In this document: piece after piece, positions 3,022 through 46,156 of the stretch
Position numbering within the stretch: the stretch's first letter is position 1
How the letters are laid out: every line of letters starts with the position of its first letter
Assembly (NCBI RefSeq): GCF_902706095.1
Contig: NZ_CACSJP010000001.1
Coordinates: 930,001 to 994,000, forward strand
Length of the DNA: 64,000 bases
From: Rhizobium sp. 18065
GTDB lineage: Bacteria; Pseudomonadota; Alphaproteobacteria; Rhizobiales; Rhizobiaceae
Direction: 5' to 3'
Translations under genes and position numbers: made by a program
Notes under the pieces: model-generated
What the model saw: only the letters and a program-made list of their open reading frames with translations
The model's database searches: none
What the model was told of the DNA's origin: nothing

Positions 3022-3831
3022 GTGAGCAAGTTTTGGAAACGAATGGCGGCTGGCAGCCGTATAGCCGTTGCCGTTGCAGCAATTTGGGCCGCCCCCTCGA
3101 CTGCCCCCTCGGCCGCTTTCGCCGCTGAACCGGTGACGGTATTCGCAGCCGCAAGTCTCAAGGAAAGCGTGGAGAAAGTCGCGATCGACTGGAAGGCGGA
3201 AACCGGCAACGAAGTGCGCCTGTCCTTTGCCGGAAGCTCGGCTCTTGCCAAGCAGATCGAAGAAGGTGCCCCGGCCGACGTTTTCATTTCCGCTGACCTG
3301 AAATGGATGGATCACCTCGACAAGGCCGGCAAGATCAAATCCGACACCCGGGTCAACCTGCTCGGCAACCGCATCGTGCTTGTCGCGCCGAAGGGCTCGT
3401 CGCTGAAAGCCAGTATCACGACCGGCTTTCCGCTCGCCGAACTTCTCGGCGATGGCCGTCTGTCCATGGCCAATGTCGATGCCGTGCCGGCCGGAACCTA
3501 TGGCAAGGCAGCCCTGGAAAATCTCGGTGTCTGGGATACCGTGAAGGACAAGGTTGCCCAGGCCGAGAACGTGCGTGCGGCCCTGCTTCTTGTGGCGCGC
3601 GGCGAAGCGCCTCTCGGCATTGTCTATGAGACCGATGCCAGGGTTGATCCTTCGGTGACGATCCTCGATCATTTCCCGGAAGACAGCCACAAGCCCATCG
3701 TCTATCCGGCCGCTCTGACCGCAGACAACGCAAACGCGAACGCCGCCGCCTTCCTCGCTTACTTGCAGGGTGCCAGAGCGCATGCCATCTTCACCGAAGC
3801 TGGCTTCACGGTCCTCGCCAAAACGAACTGA
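3022..3831 (+). CDS. modA: Molybdate ABC transporter, periplasmic binding protein
   Basis: ModA captures molybdate (and tungstate) in the periplasm and passes it to ModBC. The protein has an N-terminal signal sequence ending near AAFAAEP, then the family hallmarks VFAAASLKES, FAGSSALAKQI, GAPADVFISAD and NVDAVPAGTYGKAAL, and about the usual length (269 residues). I choose the GTG at 3022 because a GGAGG lies at 3009-3013; an in-frame ATG at 2983 lies inside the ModE operator and has no ribosome binding site. It is the first gene of modABC, with a 73-base gap to modB. Confidence 0.93.
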   Translation: MSKFWKRMAAGSRIAVAVAAIWAAPSTAPSAAFAAEPVTVFAAASLKESVEKVAIDWKAETGNEVRLSFAGSSALAKQIEEGAPADVFISADLKWMDHLDKAGKIKSDTRVNLLGNRIVLVAPKGSSLKASITTGFPLAELLGDGRLSMANVDAVPAGTYGKAALENLGVWDTVKDKVAQAENVRAALLLVARGEAPLGIVYETDARVDPSVTILDHFPEDSHKPIVYPAALTADNANANAAAFLAYLQGARAHAIFTEAGFTVLAKTN

Positions 3832-3904
3832 CCCGAACAACCTGATCCAACCAAACGACCCACAGCAATTGACCAGGCCTTGAGACTGCAACCAGGATGA
3901 CCGC

Positions 3905-4597
3905 GTGACGCTGACAGCTGAGGAATGGACCGCTATGCTGCTCAGCCTGAAGGTCGCGGCCGTTGCCGTGGTCTTTTCGCTGCCCGTGGGCATCGCCGTT
4001 GCCTGGCTGTTGTCGCGCCGTGAGTTCTGGGGCAAGACCCTGCTCAATGGCCTGGTCCATCTGCCGCTGATCATGCCGCCGGTGGTGACCGGCTATCTGC
4101 TGCTCATCACCTTCGGGCGCAAGGGTAGTGTCGGCGTCTTCCTCGAAAGCTGGTTCGGCCTCGTCTTTTCCTTCCGCTGGACAGGGGCTGCCCTTGCCGC
4201 AGCCGTGATGGGCTTTCCGCTTCTTGTGCGTTCCATTCGCCTGTCCATGGATGCCGTGGATCGCCGGCTGGAAGCCGCAGCCTCCACCCTTGGAGCGCCG
4301 CCGGCCTATGTTTTCCTGACCGTAACCCTGCCGCTGGTCCTTCCGGGCATTGCTGCCGGTGCCATCCTCGCTTTCGCCAAGGCGATGGGCGAATTTGGTG
4401 CGACGATCACCTTTGTCTCCAATATTCCCGGCGAAACCCAGACGCTTGCGAGTGCCATCTACACCTATACTCAGGTGCCGGGCGGTGATGTTGCCGCCAT
4501 GCGGCTGACCCTGATCTCGATTGCGATTTCCTTCGCTGCGCTGATTGCTTCCGAAGTTCTCGCCCGCCGGCTGGCCGCACGCATGGGAGAGGGCTGA
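3905..4597 (+). CDS. modB: Molybdate ABC transporter permease
   Basis: This is the inner-membrane channel subunit of the molybdate importer. Its 230 residues contain five or so hydrophobic segments and the binding-protein-dependent permease (EAA) loop, EAAASTLGAPPAYVFLTV, which docks onto the ATPase. The N terminus includes LPVGIAVAWLLSRREFWGK, as in ModB. Translation starts at a GTG (3905) 8 bases after a CAGGA. The stop codon overlaps the modC start by one base (TGATG), implying coupled translation. Confidence 0.93.
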   Translation: MTLTAEEWTAMLLSLKVAAVAVVFSLPVGIAVAWLLSRREFWGKTLLNGLVHLPLIMPPVVTGYLLLITFGRKGSVGVFLESWFGLVFSFRWTGAALAAAVMGFPLLVRSIRLSMDAVDRRLEAAASTLGAPPAYVFLTVTLPLVLPGIAAGAILAFAKAMGEFGATITFVSNIPGETQTLASAIYTYTQVPGGDVAAMRLTLISIAISFAALIASEVLARRLAARMGEG

Positions 4598-5682
4598 TGC
4601 TGGACATCGCCATACGCCATGAGCAGGGAGGCTTTACGCTGGACGCGGATCTTCAGATCGGTGAAGGCCTGACGGCGCTGTTCGGCCCTTCCGGTTCCGG
4701 CAAGACGACGCTGATCAATCTGGTTGCCGGCCTTGTCCGGCCAGAGCAGGGACAGATCCGGCTTTCGGGCGAAACCTGGAGCGACAGCGATCATGGTATC
4801 TTCCTGCCGCCGCATCGCCGGCGCATCGGCTATGTCTTCCAGGAGCCGCGCCTCTTTCCGCATCTGACGGTGCGCCAGAACCTTGCTTATGGCGAACGCC
4901 TCTTGCCGCGCACCGAACGCCGCGAAAACCTGTCGCGCGTCGCCGATCTTCTGGGTCTTTCCGCTTTGCTGGATCGCCGCCCGCAACATCTGTCGGGCGG
5001 AGAAAAGCAGCGCGTGGCGTTGGGCCGTGCGCTGATGGCAAGTCCGCGGCTGCTGCTGATGGACGAGCCGTTGTCGGCCCTCGACAGCGAACTGAAGCTA
5101 CAGATCCTGCCGGATATCGAGCGCATCCGCGACGAGGTCGGCATTCCGATCCTTTATGTCAGCCATTCGGTCGAGGAAGTGGCGCGCCTCGCCACCCGCG
5201 TCGTTGTCCTTGAACGCGGCAAGACCATTGCCATCGGTGCGCCGGATGCGCTTCTGTCCACTGTGCCGCGCGGTGCCGGTGCCCTGCCGGCCGGCAACTT
5301 CATCTCCGCGATCATCACCGCCCATCATGAGGCCGACGGGCTGACAGAGGCGCTGTCCGGTGCAGGCCCCCTGTTTATCCGGGCGGTCGAATTGCCTCTC
5401 GGCACCGAAATCCGCGTCTTTGTCCCGGTCGCCGATATCATGCTGGCCACCGCCGAGGTGAACGGTCTCTCGGCCCTCAATCGCCTGGCCGGCCGGATCA
5501 CCGATATCCAGCGGGAAAATGGCTCAGCCGTCGCGGTCGTAGTCGATTGCAGCGGCGAGCGCGTGGCCGTCGAGGTCACCCGTCGTTCGGCAACCCAGCT
5601 TGGGCTCGCCATCGGCAAGCCGGTCCATCTGCTGTTCAAGACGGTGTCGATTGCACCGGAAGGCCTGTTTCGACGCGCCTGA
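4597..5682 (+). CDS. modC: Molybdate ABC transporter ATPase
   Basis: This is the energising subunit of the molybdate importer. Visible motifs are Walker A (GPSGSGKTTL), Q-loop region (FQEPRLFPHLTV), signature LSGGEKQRVALGRAL, Walker B (LLLMDEP) and the H-loop (VSHSVEEV). The C-terminal part after about residue 290 (LNRLAGRITDIQ...VAVEV) is the TOBE/MOP domain typical of ModC, which can bind molybdate and give feedback. At 361 residues it is full length. The gene ends one base from the end of the convergent modE gene, leaving no space for a normal terminator between them. Confidence 0.94.
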   Translation: MLDIAIRHEQGGFTLDADLQIGEGLTALFGPSGSGKTTLINLVAGLVRPEQGQIRLSGETWSDSDHGIFLPPHRRRIGYVFQEPRLFPHLTVRQNLAYGERLLPRTERRENLSRVADLLGLSALLDRRPQHLSGGEKQRVALGRALMASPRLLLMDEPLSALDSELKLQILPDIERIRDEVGIPILYVSHSVEEVARLATRVVVLERGKTIAIGAPDALLSTVPRGAGALPAGNFISAIITAHHEADGLTEALSGAGPLFIRAVELPLGTEIRVFVPVADIMLATAEVNGLSALNRLAGRITDIQRENGSAVAVVVDCSGERVAVEVTRRSATQLGLAIGKPVHLLFKTVSIAPEGLFRRA

Positions 5683-5683
5683 C

Positions 5684-6070
5684 CTATTCGCGCTCCGGCT
5701 TTTCCGGCTTGCCCGTTTCAAATTCGCGGTTCATCGCCTGATCGAGCCAGTCAAGCTCCGCCGCCAAAGCCTTCCGGCTCTCGCTATCCATCCGTCGGCA
5801 GCAGGCGAGCAGTCTCTCCCCAAACGGCGTCAGTCCGGCACCGCCACCGCTCTTGCCGCCATGGCGGGTGAAGATCGACGGTTCGGTGAACATGCGGTTG
5901 ATCTCGTCGGCAAGCAGCCATGCCCGGCGGTAGGACATGCCGATCGCAGCCCCCGCCGCCCGGATCGATCCATGCTCGACGATCAGCGCCAGAAGCTCCG
6001 CCTTGCCCGGACCGAGACGCGCTCCGTTGGCAAGGTCGATCCTGAACGTCAGGCGCGTCTCCTTGGCCAT
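5684..6070 (-). CDS. modE: One-domain ModE-type transcriptional regulator
   Basis: This 128-residue protein corresponds only to the N-terminal winged helix-turn-helix of ModE (GPGKAELLALIVEHGSIRAA, then GMSYRRAWLLADEIN). The two molybdate-binding (MOP) domains found in E. coli ModE are missing, so it must sense molybdenum status in another way or not at all. It begins 2 bases after the stop of the FAD oxidase gene and is the last gene of a tsaC-oxidase-modE operon. It converges on modC and probably binds the palindrome at 2979-3006. One-domain ModE proteins are known in Agrobacterium. Confidence 0.85.
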   Translation of the reverse strand: MAKETRLTFRIDLANGARLGPGKAELLALIVEHGSIRAAGAAIGMSYRRAWLLADEINRMFTEPSIFTRHGGKSGGGAGLTPFGERLLACCRRMDSESRKALAAELDWLDQAMNREFETGKPEKPERE

Positions 6071-6072
6071 GG

Positions 6073-7500
6073 TCAGTCGATCACTTTGCCGGGGTTCATG
6101 ATCCCCTTCGGATCGAAAGCCTGCTTGATCCGCCGCATCAGCTCGGTCTCGATCGCCGGCCGGCTGGCGGCAAGCTCGTCGCGCTTCAACTGGCCGACAC
6201 CATGTTCGGCGGAAATCGAGCCGTTATGCGCATGCACGATCCCGTGCACCACGGCATTCATCTCGCGCCAACGGCCGATGAATTGGGCCTTGTCGGCACC
6301 CACCGGCTGGCTGATATTGTAGTGGATATTGCCGTCACCGAGATGACCGAAAGCGCAGATGCGGGCGTCTGGCATCACCCGGCGCACGGCCTCGTCGGCT
6401 TCGCTCAGAAAGGCTGGAATGCGCGACACAGGCACTGACACGTCATGCTTTATCGAGCCGCCTTCCGGCCGCTGTGCCTCCGACATGCTCTCGCGCAGAT
6501 GCCAGAATGCTTCTTGCTGGCCAAGCGAACTGGCAATCGCCGCGTCCGCGATCAGGCCGGCCTCGAAGGCGTCTTCCAGCAGCGCCTGGATCATCGCATC
6601 GGCCGTCTCGGCGGAATCGGAGGTGGAAATATCGATCAGCACATACCAGGCATGGGCCGAGGGCAGGGGATCGCGCACGCCGGGGATGTGCTTCGTGGTG
6701 AACTCGATGCCGAGGCGCGGCATCAGTTCGAACCCGGTCAGCGCCGTGCCGCAATGCTGCGATGCCTTCTCGAACAGCGCCAGCGCCTGTGCAGGGCTAT
6801 CGAGACCGGCAAAGGCCACCTGCTTGCCGCGCGGGCGCGGATACATTTTCAACACCGCGCCTGTGATGATGCCGAGCGTGCCTTCCGCGCCGATGAACAG
6901 GTCGCGCAGGTCATAGCCGCTATTGTCCTTTTTCAGCCGGCGCAGCCCGTCCCAGATCTCGCCGGTCGGCAGGACCACTTCGAGCCCGAGGCAGAGTTGG
7001 CGCATATTGCCATAGGCGAGCACGGCCGTGCCGCCGGCATTGGTCGACAGATTGCCACCGATCCGGCAGGACCCTTCAGAACCGAGCGACAGCGGAAACA
7101 GCCGGTCATGCGCTTCCGCCGCTTTCTGGACATTTGCCAGAACGCAGCCGCCATCGACGATGATCACATCGGCAAGCGCATCGACTTCGCGGATACGGTT
7201 CATCCGCTCCAGTGAAAGCAGAACATCGTCGCTGCCCTCGCGCGGCACCTGTCCACCGACAAGGCCGGTGCCGCCGCTGACCGGCACGATCGGCGTTCCG
7301 GTTTCGCTGGCGAGTTTCAGGATTGCCGAAACCTCTGCCGTGCATGCCGGCTTCAGCACCAGTGGCGACGAGCCATGATAAAGTCCGCGATTTTCGGTGA
7401 GGTAAGGCTTGATATCGTCCTGCAGGACCAGCGCATGGGCTTCTCCGACGATATCGATGAAGGCGCGCAGCGTCTCGGCTCGCGTCAATGTCATGCTCAT
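6073..7500 (-). CDS. FAD-linked oxidase, D-2-hydroxyacid dehydrogenase type
   Basis: This 475-residue flavoprotein has the PCMH-type FAD-binding domain in its first half (PVSGGTGLVGGQ, SLGSEGSCRIGGNLSTNAGG, LFIGAEGTLGIIT) and the FAD-linked oxidase C-terminal domain (AFGHLGDGNIHYN, SISAEHGVGQLKRDEL, FDPKGIMNPGKV). The family oxidises D-lactate, glycolate or D-2-hydroxyglutarate; the overall pattern is closest to D-2-hydroxyglutarate dehydrogenase-like proteins, but the exact substrate cannot be read from sequence. Its start overlaps the stop of the upstream tsaC-like gene by 4 bases and its stop is 2 bases from modE, so the three are co-transcribed. Confidence 0.88.
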   Translation of the reverse strand: MSMTLTRAETLRAFIDIVGEAHALVLQDDIKPYLTENRGLYHGSSPLVLKPACTAEVSAILKLASETGTPIVPVSGGTGLVGGQVPREGSDDVLLSLERMNRIREVDALADVIIVDGGCVLANVQKAAEAHDRLFPLSLGSEGSCRIGGNLSTNAGGTAVLAYGNMRQLCLGLEVVLPTGEIWDGLRRLKKDNSGYDLRDLFIGAEGTLGIITGAVLKMYPRPRGKQVAFAGLDSPAQALALFEKASQHCGTALTGFELMPRLGIEFTTKHIPGVRDPLPSAHAWYVLIDISTSDSAETADAMIQALLEDAFEAGLIADAAIASSLGQQEAFWHLRESMSEAQRPEGGSIKHDVSVPVSRIPAFLSEADEAVRRVMPDARICAFGHLGDGNIHYNISQPVGADKAQFIGRWREMNAVVHGIVHAHNGSISAEHGVGQLKRDELAASRPAIETELMRRIKQAFDPKGIMNPGKVID

Positions 7501-10419: not shown

Positions 10420-10784
10420 GTCGAGGCTCTGACGGTTACTGGCTTGGTACGCCGATCTTACAGCGACATGGTTAATCATGATTTCCAAGGCACTGTGCTC
10501 CCTTGAGGTTTCGCGAGGCTTACCGCAGCGCACATTGAATTGACTGAATTCGTTCCGCTCTGATGATGTTCTCCGAGTGCGACAGGCATTGGCAGCCGAT
10601 CGCTTTGGTTTGTCATTTTGCGCCATTGCAACAGTTTCGGACGCCACTGATTTTCCCTATCTCCAAGAAAATACACATCATTTTTGAGGAGGCGCTTTTT
10701 GCGCCTTTGCATGGACATGTCGCAAACATTTCCGGCCGTGTCGTTTCGCAATGCAGTACCGGACTGCCGCCTGTGTTTAGATAT

Positions 10785-11024
10785 CGGCAAGCTCGAGGTG
10801 CCGCCCTGCTAGGGAGGGTGGAAAATCGGGAAGCCGGTCAAAATCCGGCGCTGCCCCCGCAACGGTGGTGGAGATAGACGTAACGGCAAAAGGCCACTGG
10901 GAAGGTCCTGGGAAGGCGCCGAACGTGTCTGGCAACGGACGTCTCCAGAGCCCGGAAACCAGCCTTGAAGCAATGATATTTGAGGTCGCGGTGGGCGACC
11001 GGAGATAGCCGTGATCGCCCTTTT
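10785..11024 (+). promoter_or_regulatory. Cobalamin (B12) riboswitch with terminator-type expression platform
   Basis: The adenosylcobalamin riboswitch signature is clear: AAATCGGGAAGCCGGT at about 10823, the near-invariant B12-box core GCTGCCCCCGCAACGGT at 10850-10866, and the 3' element AGAGCCCGGAAACCAGCC at 10947-10964. After it come two mutually exclusive hairpins: GGTCGC/GCGACC (10984-11000) and GGGCGA/TCGCCC followed by TTTT (10993-11024). The second looks like an intrinsic terminator and the first like an antiterminator. It lies directly upstream of the Rieske oxygenase gene at 11081. Such riboswitches normally turn expression off when cobalamin is plentiful. Confidence 0.93.
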
Positions 11025-11080
11025 CGGGTCGATTGGTGCTGCGCTCCTGTTCCATCGCCGGTGAAACGAACGAGGACGAC

Positions 11081-12325
11081 ATGGATCTGCACAGCACGGT
11101 ATTGCGGCAGTTGAAGAACCGCCGGGAAGGCTTCAGCCTGGAGCAGCCTTTCTACATCGATCAGGATTATTTCAAGCTCGACATGGAGCAGATCTGGTAT
11201 CGCGACTGGCTGTTCATCGGCCATGACTGCGAAATCCCGCGCGCCGGCAACTATTTCACCGCCCAGGTCGGCGATTATCCGATCGTCATGGTCCGCGGCA
11301 AGGATCAGGTGATCCGCGCTTTCCACAATACCTGTCGCCACCGCGGTCACCGCGTCTGCACCTCGGATCGCGGCGCGTCCGCGAAGCTGGTCTGTCCCTA
11401 CCACAACTGGACCTACGATCTCGACGGCTCGCTGGTCTTCGCCCGTCAGATGGGTGAAACCTTCGACAAGAGCGAGTTTGGCCTGAAGCCGGTTCATTGC
11501 GAAAGCGTCGCTGGCTACATCTTCATCTGCCTTGCGAACGAACCCGCCGATTTCGCGCCGGTCAGGGCATCGATCGAACCCTACATGAAGCCGCATCGGC
11601 TTTCGGAGGCCAAGGTCGCCCATCGCAGCACGATCATCGAGAAGGGCAACTGGAAGCTCGTCTGGGAAAACAACCGCGAGTGCTACCACTGCGCCAGCAA
11701 CCATCCTGAACTCTGCCGCACCTATCCGGAAGCCCCGACGGCAACCGGCGTGCAGGGCGCCGGCGACGACCCGGTCATCGCCGAACACTGGCAGCGTTGC
11801 GAGGCGGCCGGCCTGCCGAGCACCTTCAATATCGATCCGTCCGGCCAGTTCCGCACCGCCCGCATGCCGCTGATCCAGGAGGCCGAAAGCTACACCATGT
11901 CCGGCAAGCGTGCGGTCAAGCGTCCGCTGTCCGACGACGTCTCGACCTCGCATATCGGCACCATGCTGCTGTTCCACTATCCCTCGACCTGGAACCACAT
12001 TCTCGTCGACCACGCGATCTCCTTCCGGGTCACGCCGCTGTCGGCCGAGGAAACCGCAGTCACCACCACCTGGCTGGTGCACAAGGATGCGGTCGAAGGC
12101 GTCGATTACGACCTCGAGGAACTGACCCATGTCTGGGAAATGACCAACGACCAGGACCGCTCGATCGTCGAGGAAAATGCCTTCGGCATACGCTCCCCGG
12201 CCTATGAGCCCGGTCCCTATTCGGTCGAGCACGAAGGTGGCGTCATGCAGTTCGTCGACTGGTACACGACCTTCATGATCAACCGTCTGCAGGGCGAAAA
12301 AGCCCGCCTCTCAGTTGTGGCCTGA
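11081..12325 (+). CDS. gbcA: Rieske non-haem iron oxygenase, glycine-betaine monooxygenase type
   Basis: This is the alpha subunit of a Rieske oxygenase (414 residues). The [2Fe-2S] ligands are C85, H87, C105 and H108 (CRHRGH and CPYHNW), and the catalytic iron site includes H203 and H208 (ECYHCASNH). Length and sequence fit GbcA, which with a reductase oxidises one N-methyl group of glycine betaine to formaldehyde, giving dimethylglycine. The closely related proline betaine (stachydrine) demethylase is the main alternative. I choose the ATG at 11081, after CGAGGACGAC; an in-frame start at 11033 lies at the edge of the riboswitch. It forms an operon with the reductase 1 base downstream, under cobalamin riboswitch control. 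Confidence 0.88.
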   Translation: MDLHSTVLRQLKNRREGFSLEQPFYIDQDYFKLDMEQIWYRDWLFIGHDCEIPRAGNYFTAQVGDYPIVMVRGKDQVIRAFHNTCRHRGHRVCTSDRGASAKLVCPYHNWTYDLDGSLVFARQMGETFDKSEFGLKPVHCESVAGYIFICLANEPADFAPVRASIEPYMKPHRLSEAKVAHRSTIIEKGNWKLVWENNRECYHCASNHPELCRTYPEAPTATGVQGAGDDPVIAEHWQRCEAAGLPSTFNIDPSGQFRTARMPLIQEAESYTMSGKRAVKRPLSDDVSTSHIGTMLLFHYPSTWNHILVDHAISFRVTPLSAEETAVTTTWLVHKDAVEGVDYDLEELTHVWEMTNDQDRSIVEENAFGIRSPAYEPGPYSVEHEGGVMQFVDWYTTFMINRLQGEKARLSVVA

Positions 12326-12326
12326 T

Positions 12327-13412
12327 ATGAACATGATGCTCGCTCCCTATCGCCACGTCGATGAAATGCGTCCCTGGTCCGACAGGGAGCATCTGCTGGA
12401 ATGCGTCGCCGTCACGCCGGAAGCCCCCGACGTGATGACCTTCACCTTCCGGCCGAACAAACCGGGCCTGTGGTTCCGCTACCAGCCCGGCCAGTTCGTC
12501 ACGCTGGAAATCCCGGTCTCGCCGGAACCGGTGATGCGCACCTATACCCTGTCTTCCAGCCCGTCGCGGCCCTATACGATCGCGATCACGGTCAAGGCGC
12601 AGAAGGACAGTATCGGCACCCGCTGGATGTTCGACAACCTGAAGCCCGGCATGGCGCTGAAGGCGATCGGCCCGCTCGGCGATTTCTCCTATGCCCGCCA
12701 TCCGGGCAGGAAATACCTGTTCATCTCGGCCGGTTCCGGCATCACCCCGATGATGTCGATGAGCCGTGACATGGGCGACCGCTCGCCCGACAGCGACATC
12801 GCATTTCTCCATTGTGCCCGCTCGCCCGACGACATCATCTTCCGCTGGGAGCTTGAAGCAAAGGCGCGCGACATGCCGCATTTCACCCTCGGCTTCATCA
12901 TCGAGCAACTCGGCCGCGGCCAGCTCTGGTCGGGCCTGAAGGGCCGCATCGACAAGGCGAAGATCGCGCTTCTGGCCTCGGATTTCCTCGAGCGCACAGT
13001 CTTCTGCTGCGGACCGGAGCCGTTTATGGCCACCGTCCGCGAGGCGCTGTCCGGCGCTGGCTTCGACATGAGCCAGTATCATGAGGAAACCTTCCAGCCG
13101 GCCAAGCCGCAACTACCTATCGTCGTTGCCGATCATTCGGATGGCGAGCAGCCGACGAAAGTCACCTTTGCCATGTCCGGCAAGGACGGGCTCTGCGCGC
13201 CCGGCCATACCGTACTTCAGGCTGCCCGCTCGTCTGGCGTGCGCATCGGTGCCGCCTGCGAATCCGGTCTCTGCGGCACCTGCAAGGTGTTGAAGATTTC
13301 CGGCGAGGTCGAGATGGAGCACAATGGCGGCATCCTCGACGAGGAAATCGACGAGGGCTATATCCTGGCCTGCTGTTCGCGGCCAAAGGGCGAAATCGAA
13401 ATCGAGGCGTGA
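12327..13412 (+). CDS. gbcB: Ferredoxin-NAD(P)H reductase component of the Rieske oxygenase
   Basis: This 361-residue protein carries electrons from NAD(P)H to the Rieske partner. It has an FAD-binding domain (MRTYTLSSSP), an NAD-binding domain (LFISAGSGITPMMSM, FCCGPEPFM) and a C-terminal plant-type [2Fe-2S] domain with ligands in CESGLCGTCK and a final ACC. That domain order is that of GbcB. The start at 12327 lies 1 base after the gbcA stop (TGATATG), so the two genes are surely co-expressed. A strong terminator at 13437-13476 closes the operon, so only these two genes are under the riboswitch. Confidence 0.88.
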   Translation: MNMMLAPYRHVDEMRPWSDREHLLECVAVTPEAPDVMTFTFRPNKPGLWFRYQPGQFVTLEIPVSPEPVMRTYTLSSSPSRPYTIAITVKAQKDSIGTRWMFDNLKPGMALKAIGPLGDFSYARHPGRKYLFISAGSGITPMMSMSRDMGDRSPDSDIAFLHCARSPDDIIFRWELEAKARDMPHFTLGFIIEQLGRGQLWSGLKGRIDKAKIALLASDFLERTVFCCGPEPFMATVREALSGAGFDMSQYHEETFQPAKPQLPIVVADHSDGEQPTKVTFAMSGKDGLCAPGHTVLQAARSSGVRIGAACESGLCGTCKVLKISGEVEMEHNGGILDEEIDEGYILACCSRPKGEIEIEA

Positions 13413-13436
13413 ATTCGACCAGGCGATGAACGTCAT

Positions 13437-13476
13437 CAGGGCGTGCCAAGCGATTGGCGCGCCCTGTCCGTTTTGT
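13437..13476 (+). terminator. Rho-independent terminator after gbcAB
   Basis: A 13-bp stem, CAGGGCGTGCCAA paired with TTGGCGCGCCCTG (one G-U pair), with a GCGA tetraloop, is followed by TCCGTTTTGT. It ends the riboswitch-controlled operon. The rest of the gap up to 13703 shows nothing else recognisable. Confidence 0.85.
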
Positions 13477-13703
13477 CCTTGCATCGCAAGGCGATGGAAC
13501 AAACGGCACGGTCATCCGTTGGCAGGCAATCGCGGTCGTTGGTCGCGGCCAACTGGACCGCGCAAACATATCAAGTTTTAGAATAAAACCAATGTTAATG
13601 CTGGGTTCAGGATGACACCGGTAATTTTCATTTCAGGATCAGCGTTCGCAAGGCATGGGCCGGGACATAAAGCTGGTCGCGGAAAACGCAGGGAGAAAGT
13701 CGC

Positions 13704-45938: not shown

Positions 45939-46156
45939 GGCGGACGTCTCCTGAAGTGTGCCGGTTCTATAGACCCTCGGTGCGATGAGGGGAATGGCTC
46001 GCTTAGGCGCCACCGATGGCCGCTTCGTTGACAAAACCGCTTCTCCGCTCCATATTTACGTAGAAGTTTCGAGGTGGGAACGGCCTACCCACGCACCCGC
46101 AAGGGTCAGTAGCCGCAAGGCGAAGAGATCCGGGATTTGGCACCCCGGCGGAAATG

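Follow-up and report, generated by a model that had tools for sequence, protein, structure and literature searches.

A cobalamin riboswitch precedes a putative betaine-demethylating Rieske oxygenase operon in Rhizobium sp. 18065 and co-occurs with MttB-family methyltransferases in its relatives

The locus

Analysis of a 64,000-nucleotide stretch of Rhizobium sp. 18065 (contig NZ_CACSJP010000001.1, positions 930,001 to 994,000), hereafter called the window, showed that a cobalamin riboswitch lies in front of two genes coding for a gbcA-like Rieske oxygenase and a gbcB-like reductase. These three features are the following, in window coordinates.

10779 to 10981, plus strand: cobalamin riboswitch aptamer (RF00174); cmscan 102.8 bits, model positions 1-189 of 189, E 1.3e-24; recovered in the whole-genome search
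11081 to 12325, plus strand: gbcA-like Rieske oxygenase of group Vb type, 414 amino acids (aa); Pfam Rieske and Ring_hydroxyl_A over cut-off; NF058607 510 bits
12327 to 13412, plus strand: gbcB-like reductase, 361 aa, with FAD, NAD and 2Fe-2S domains; Pfam Fer2, NAD_binding_1 and FAD_binding_6 over cut-off; NF058606 374 bits

The initial annotation, made by reading the letters of the window, had described a complete riboswitch directly before gbcA-gbcB and had proposed a covariance-model search. Both the completeness and the position were borne out, as the Rfam model matched over its full length on the plus strand with a score well above the gathering score of 31.5 bits, and gbcA starts 99 nt past the end of the aptamer on the same strand and is followed by gbcB. 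A search of the whole genome (31 contigs, 96% complete) revealed five cobalamin riboswitches. By best matches, the other four precede cbiM/cbiQ, a BtuC-like ABC transporter whose parts score below their cut-offs, bluB and cobU-cobW; since these are cobalt or cobalamin uptake or synthesis genes, gbcAB stands alone among the five targets in not resembling a supply gene.

Among solved structures, the window oxygenase matches 3n0q best (545 bits), followed by 3vca/4qup (527 bits). A gene of the Sinorhizobium meliloti plasmid pSymA contains two unchanged stretches of the 3vca chain, and we take 3vca to be the S. meliloti Stc2 structure. The S. meliloti structure of this oxygenase group is that of the stachydrine demethylase Stc2 (PMC10952381). 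Group Vb Rieske oxygenases are recognised, in the available text of the two sources, by an Asn where CntA has the aromatic Tyr203, a CXXC pair and two His iron ligands (PMC7948474, PMC10952381). By spacing, these marks correspond to N198, C201/C204, H203 and H208 of the window protein, which is thus like GbcAB and Stc2 in carrying Asn for the aromatic residue and CXXC beside the iron site. On this evidence the most likely identity of the window oxygenase is a demethylase of some betaine.

Distribution of the riboswitch among gbcA homologues

The survey of gbcAB leaders that had been suggested with the initial annotation was carried out in two collections, and the riboswitch recurred in both. 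The first (order sample) comprised 397 genomes, 83 of which carry a homologue of the window oxygenase at E 1e-100 or better. Here the riboswitch was found before 20 of 26 homologue rows at 62% identity or more (the window included), before 6/22 rows at 52-59% identity and before none of the 22 rows examined at 42-49% identity (of 47 such rows). The second (named set) consisted of the best 80 of at least 596 listed homologue loci; a model built from 26 of the order-sample riboswitches placed one directly before the gene in 47 of the 80, and a motif search returned the same 47. Loci with the riboswitch include those of Mesorhizobium, Shinella, Sinorhizobium/Ensifer, Ciceribacter, the Rhizobium tropici group, Labrys, Aminobacter and one Ruegeria, while none was found at gbcA in the sampled Rhizobium leguminosarum-type, Agrobacterium, Ochrobactrum-type and Martelella loci.

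A weak, partial match of 36 bits in Primorskyibacter (locus L205) was scored as absence, and a match about 1.25 kb upstream of the gene at locus L194 was not counted as linked. Genomes G150, G254 and G377 have two gbcA copies each, and a genome was scored as having the riboswitch if any copy was linked to one. The GbcA of a locus labelled Bacillus subtilis strain SK6B4 (L182, JAHREI010000004.1) groups with that of Pseudochrobactrum, and the assembly is probably mislabelled or mixed.

Co-occurrence with MttB-family methyltransferases

The MttB family was detected, with at most three candidates scored per genome, in 125 of the 397 order-sample genomes. In the 45 order-sample genomes whose homologue reaches at least 52% identity, MttB was present in 25/25 with a riboswitch-linked oxygenase against 8/20 without. 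Fifty genomes of the named set were hand-picked for the same search, 23 from the 47 riboswitch-bearing loci and 27 from the 33 others, with mainly fragments and near-duplicates omitted; MttB was found in all 23 riboswitch-linked genomes and in 5/27 of the others. The co-occurrence with corrinoid-dependent methyltransferases that the initial annotation had named as a check was clear in the combined data, with MttB in 48/48 genomes with a riboswitch-linked oxygenase versus 13/47 without (Fisher 2e-15, kinship ignored). Counted by gene copies, MttB accompanies 49/49 linked and 15/49 unlinked copies, a riboswitch without MttB occurring in 0/49. Within genus g2, five genomes of which carry the gene, the one riboswitch genome has MttB and the four without the riboswitch have none; gbcA homologues with neither riboswitch nor MttB are held by G131 and by G023, G187, G281 and G385 of genus g2.

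On the gene tree (98 rows) the riboswitch changed 11 times and MttB 9 times. Supported branches gave 5 or 6 independent pairs, of which on average 3.0 or 3.8 were concordant and 0 opposite. A model of dependent evolution of the two traits was preferred over independence (log-likelihood -49.6 versus -62.5, likelihood ratio 25.8, p 3.5e-5), in a fit whose rate of riboswitch loss without MttB hit its bound and whose tree was a quick GbcA tree and not a species tree.

All 50 named genomes contain at least one cobalamin riboswitch somewhere, and 7 of 8 metE genes in these genomes have one directly upstream among the matches listed. Three genomes (G404, G406 and G413) have a riboswitch directly before metE, none at gbcA and no MttB. 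Absence of the riboswitch at gbcA thus does not reflect a general absence of such switches.

Corrinoid-dependent genes of Rhizobium sp. 18065

The genome of Rhizobium sp. 18065 itself carries three MttB-family genes. One of them, on contig 16, is adjoined by genes for a B12-binding protein and a DUF1638 protein, with a PF02574 S-methyltransferase gene about 3 kb further. The available text of PMC12478193 reports that an aerobic alphaproteobacterium requires MtgC and MtgD to demethylate glycine betaine and that S. meliloti has MtgBCDE genes; it assigns genes of the kind found on contig 16 to the cobalamin-dependent demethylation of glycine betaine and to methionine synthesis. The MtgBCDE system is the presumed counterpart of the window's operon, given the MttB-family, B12-binding, DUF1638 and PF02574 genes that stand together on contig 16; riboswitch control of gbcAB was not found in the available text of that paper, the main text of which contains the word riboswitch once, in the reference list.

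A second MttB gene of the genome (locus L017, 9369-10910) is followed by a gene for a 687-aa oxidoreductase of OYE/FadH type (10922-12985), and a similar oxidoreductase gene adjoins gbcA at L123, where there is no riboswitch. An open reading frame (ORF) of L018 considered as MetH was rejected, being a sensor kinase, and a 1255-aa frame of contig 2 with a B12-binding match resembles MetH in size alone.

Other riboswitch targets near gbcAB in relatives

Neighbourhoods of 19 kb around 25 riboswitch-linked copies were read and their riboswitches verified by cmscan. In 4/25, further riboswitches precede genes for B12-independent enzymes (metE, nrdA(B), nrdD) near riboswitch-gbcAB. At L113 (G150) metE, nrdAB and gbcAB are consecutive, each with its own cobalamin riboswitch; at L105 (G198) riboswitch-preceded metE, nrdA and gbcAB stand in a row, as do nrdD, nrdAB and gbcAB at L100 (G189), each behind a riboswitch. 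At L099 (G265), which belongs to the window's family, a riboswitch-metE lies a few genes from riboswitch-gbcAB. No riboswitch neighbours of the metE/nrd type were found at the window's own locus.

A second cobalamin riboswitch divergent to that of gbcAB was seen at L102 (10720-10917, plus strand) and L108 (8310-8514, minus strand); that of L102 precedes a TonB-dependent receptor gene that scores best, though under the cut-off, with the model of the vitamin B12 receptor. At L102 and L111, riboswitch-gbcAB has a gene for a GbdR-like regulator no more than about 5 kb away (373 and 345 bits, below the cut-off of 480). At L099 a second gbcA-like gene (11680-12909, plus strand, 409 aa) follows riboswitch-gbcAB.

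Proposed role of the riboswitch

We propose that the window oxygenase is a B12-independent alternative to corrinoid-dependent betaine demethylation and is shut off by cobalamin, a reading to which we give a probability of roughly three in four. With ample cobalamin, the leader riboswitch would lower expression of the two-component Rieske oxygenase encoded by gbcAB; we infer this direction from the class of the riboswitch. The oxygenase would remove N-methyl groups of a betaine with O2 and without need of cobalamin, and would stand in for betaine demethylation by MttB-family methyltransferases as metE does for metH. It would, on this reading, be used only when cobalamin is short. We further infer that the oxygenase and the MttB route share a substrate and that cells switch between them physiologically. 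The idea of a B12-independent alternative had been put forward in the initial annotation and now draws comparative support from the presence of MttB in every examined genome with the linked riboswitch and from the metE, nrdA(B) and nrdD company in four neighbourhoods.

The closest precedent is the metE/metH system, in which the same riboswitch class precedes a gene for which a cobalamin-dependent enzyme of the same genome can substitute. The rule given for such pairs in the available text of PMC2211319 is that cobalamin represses the B12-independent enzyme when both members occur, with metE named and the desaturase gene ole1 as a candidate (PMC2211319). The gbcAB pair differs in being chemically unlike, O2-dependent oxidative demethylation standing against methyl transfer to a corrinoid protein, and in being catabolic and not biosynthetic. 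Cobalamin riboswitch control of B12-independent ribonucleotide reductases is known for nrdAB. Such riboswitches precede nrdAB or nrdA at L100, L105 and L113, and nrdD at L100, in a row with riboswitch-gbcAB, although these enzymes serve DNA precursors rather than catabolism.

We lean, with less confidence, towards a wider picture for the Hyphomicrobiales and a Ruegeria, in which cobalamin would pick the chemistry of betaine demethylation, corrinoid methyl transfer or, when it is scarce, O2 oxidation giving formaldehyde. Here gbcAB would join metE and nrdAB/nrdD as a riboswitch-controlled, B12-free stand-in, and the riboswitch would be dropped after loss of the corrinoid methyltransferase.

Observations that weigh against the proposal

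The observations gathered under this heading count against the proposed role, and are given with the results that bear on them. Thirteen genomes have MttB but no riboswitch at gbcA. Among them, Ciceribacter lividus and Mesorhizobium sp. CA8 carry an MttB of the mtgB-mtgC type of Rhizobium sp. 18065, and in five genomes of family f41 (G217, G237, G286, G341 and G365) the MttB proteins are near those of the riboswitch-linked G254 and G377. Four of these five f41 genomes carry only the gbcA kind that G254 and G377 hold as a riboswitch-free second copy. The MttB phylogenetic tree (43 proteins, quick method, two long branches flagged) showed that the sampled riboswitch-bearing Rhizobiaceae have the MttB type of contig 16, beside mtgC and DUF1638, while the single MttB of Methylocapsa sp. 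S129, which has no riboswitch, is of a far type; an mtgC match was present in 17 of 40 fetched MttB loci. MttB subtype as a full account of the exceptions is ruled out by Ciceribacter lividus and Mesorhizobium sp. CA8. Furthermore, MttB members act on many substrates, so that their presence is not proof of a shared substrate, and many riboswitch-linked genomes have several MttB genes.

On the statistical side, MttB absences in the order sample are less firm than those of the 50 named genomes. The kinship-corrected sign test on independent pairs gave median p values of 0.25 and 0.125, not significant alone; with only 5 or 6 pairs the test is underpowered.

The window oxygenase scores 510 bits against the GbcA equivalog model NF058607, below the cut-off of 670, and the reductase 374 bits against the GbcB model NF058606, below the cut-off of 500. 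The names gbcA and gbcB used in the initial annotation therefore hold as statements of homology and fall short of the curated cut-offs. The phylogenetic tree of 48 proteins placed the window protein and the pSymA (Stc2) protein in one supported clade, and the row nearest to the GbcA model (L069, 567 of 670 bits) outside it. Since no protein of the tree exceeds the GbcA cut-off, the tree establishes kinship to Stc2 without placing a true GbcA. The likeness to Stc2 does not extend to control, a search at the Stc2 locus having detected no riboswitch before that gene.

Lastly, the terminator/antiterminator pair described in the leader by the initial annotation was not recovered, a scan of 10600-13700 for terminator-like sites giving none there.

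Alternative explanations

Of the other explanations, each of which we consider improbable, the best placed is one of cobalamin supply, in which low cobalamin would raise betaine demethylation, the resulting glycine going into 5-aminolevulinate and the one-carbon units into methylation of the corrin ring. In its favour, the genome's four remaining riboswitches stand before genes of cobalamin synthesis and uptake. Betaine is a known additive of industrial cobalamin fermentation; it stimulates cobalamin production in aerobic producers according to the available text of a review (PMC8123684), and it is a component of fermentation and feeding media of Ensifer adhaerens (PMC9157374, available text). 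The synthesis gene cobI does not track the riboswitch, however, scoring over cut-off in 22/23 named genomes with it and in 23/27 without, and Aquibium carbonis, with both the riboswitch and MttB, lacks a cobI that scores over cut-off. The association found is with MttB, and in four relatives it is metE, nrdA(B) and nrdD that neighbouring riboswitches precede.

Slightly less probable still is a methionine back-up, in which MetH would fail at low cobalamin and the oxygenase would supply a different route with one-carbon units, and the MttB link would be indirect. Genes for MetH (L104) or MetE (L099) near riboswitch-gbcAB in some relatives, and the PF02574 homocysteine methyltransferase gene near the mtgB-mtgC cluster of Rhizobium sp. 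18065, agree with it, but metE presence does not track the riboswitch (4/23 named genomes with, 4/27 without). Oxidative demethylation, moreover, yields formaldehyde and not a methyl group for homocysteine, which weighs against this explanation. Least probable is shared ancestry alone, in which riboswitch and MttB would both date far back in one part of the order and would have disappeared jointly, by chance or through general gene loss: both traits are clustered on the tree and supported branches offer few independent pairs, but no riboswitch row lacks MttB, the dependent model is preferred, and genomes without the switch at gbcA retain cobalamin riboswitches, three of them before metE.

Significance of the proposed control

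Both the riboswitch class and the metE/metH logic are already known. The betaine oxygenase as a target appears undescribed: no report of cobalamin riboswitch control of gbcAB was found in literature searches, the scope of which left out supplements, subscription papers and some older surveys. If a cobalamin-repressed betaine oxygenase is correct, gbcAB would be a new sort of catabolic target for cobalamin riboswitches, rhizobial betaine use would be tied to cobalamin status, and the riboswitch would offer a genetic handle on which betaine route a cell uses. The aerobic cobalamin-dependent glycine betaine route was reported in 2025 (PMC12478193, available text), so that a natural switch to the oxygenase would make its cost and benefit testable. 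Such control may also bear on the importance of betaine in industrial cobalamin fermentation with Ensifer-type strains.

Leader and downstream features

Between the aptamer and gbcA, and after gbcB, the following further features were read.

10984 to 11000, plus strand: 6-pair hairpin with loop GGTGG following the aptamer, probably the regulatory kissing-loop hairpin; conserved in homologous leaders
11072 to 11076, plus strand: ribosome-binding-like GAGGA before gbcA, read from the sequence
13437 to 13466, plus strand: terminator-like hairpin after gbcB, 13-pair stem, tail TCCGTTTTGT; one found, shuffles give 2.6

A hairpin with a GGYGG-type loop and at least 5 consecutive pairs was present in 44/54 homologous leaders, was weaker in 5 and had no recognisable motif in 5, with the survey script taking the best-pairing candidate of each leader and so being biased toward pairing. 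Among the 49 leaders with the motif, pairs 1-5 form in 46-49, and pairs 3-5 are of several standard types. A regulatory hairpin with a conserved loop is a feature of this riboswitch class, and the hairpin of the window leader, the first after the aptamer, is probably the regulatory kissing-loop hairpin of the class, a name that we presume to apply here.

Folding of 26 leaders, with start codons set by the protein match and so possibly misplaced in a few, predicted that access to the ribosome site shifts by at most 0.03 in 23/26 when the hairpin is forced or forbidden. The reading of a terminator/antiterminator pair in the leader was rejected, the scan having given no terminator-like site there. 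The foldings showed no clear change at the ribosome site, and control may act on either transcription or translation.

The terminator after gbcB, which in the initial annotation limited control to the two genes, corresponds to the hairpin at 13437-13466, the sole terminator-like match in 10600-13700. Its stem has 13 pairs, but 2.6 such matches are expected in shuffles, so that only this long stem favours it as a terminator.

At L105 a SAM_alpha riboswitch (3043-3120, minus strand, 81.1 bits) lies just past the end of a large ORF (3272-7042, minus strand), which clusters with the MetH of L104, and before an ORF at 2066-2989 on the same strand. In the window itself, a skipping-rope RNA (RF02924) was detected at 46064-46156 on the plus strand with 54.7 bits against a gathering score of 36.7.

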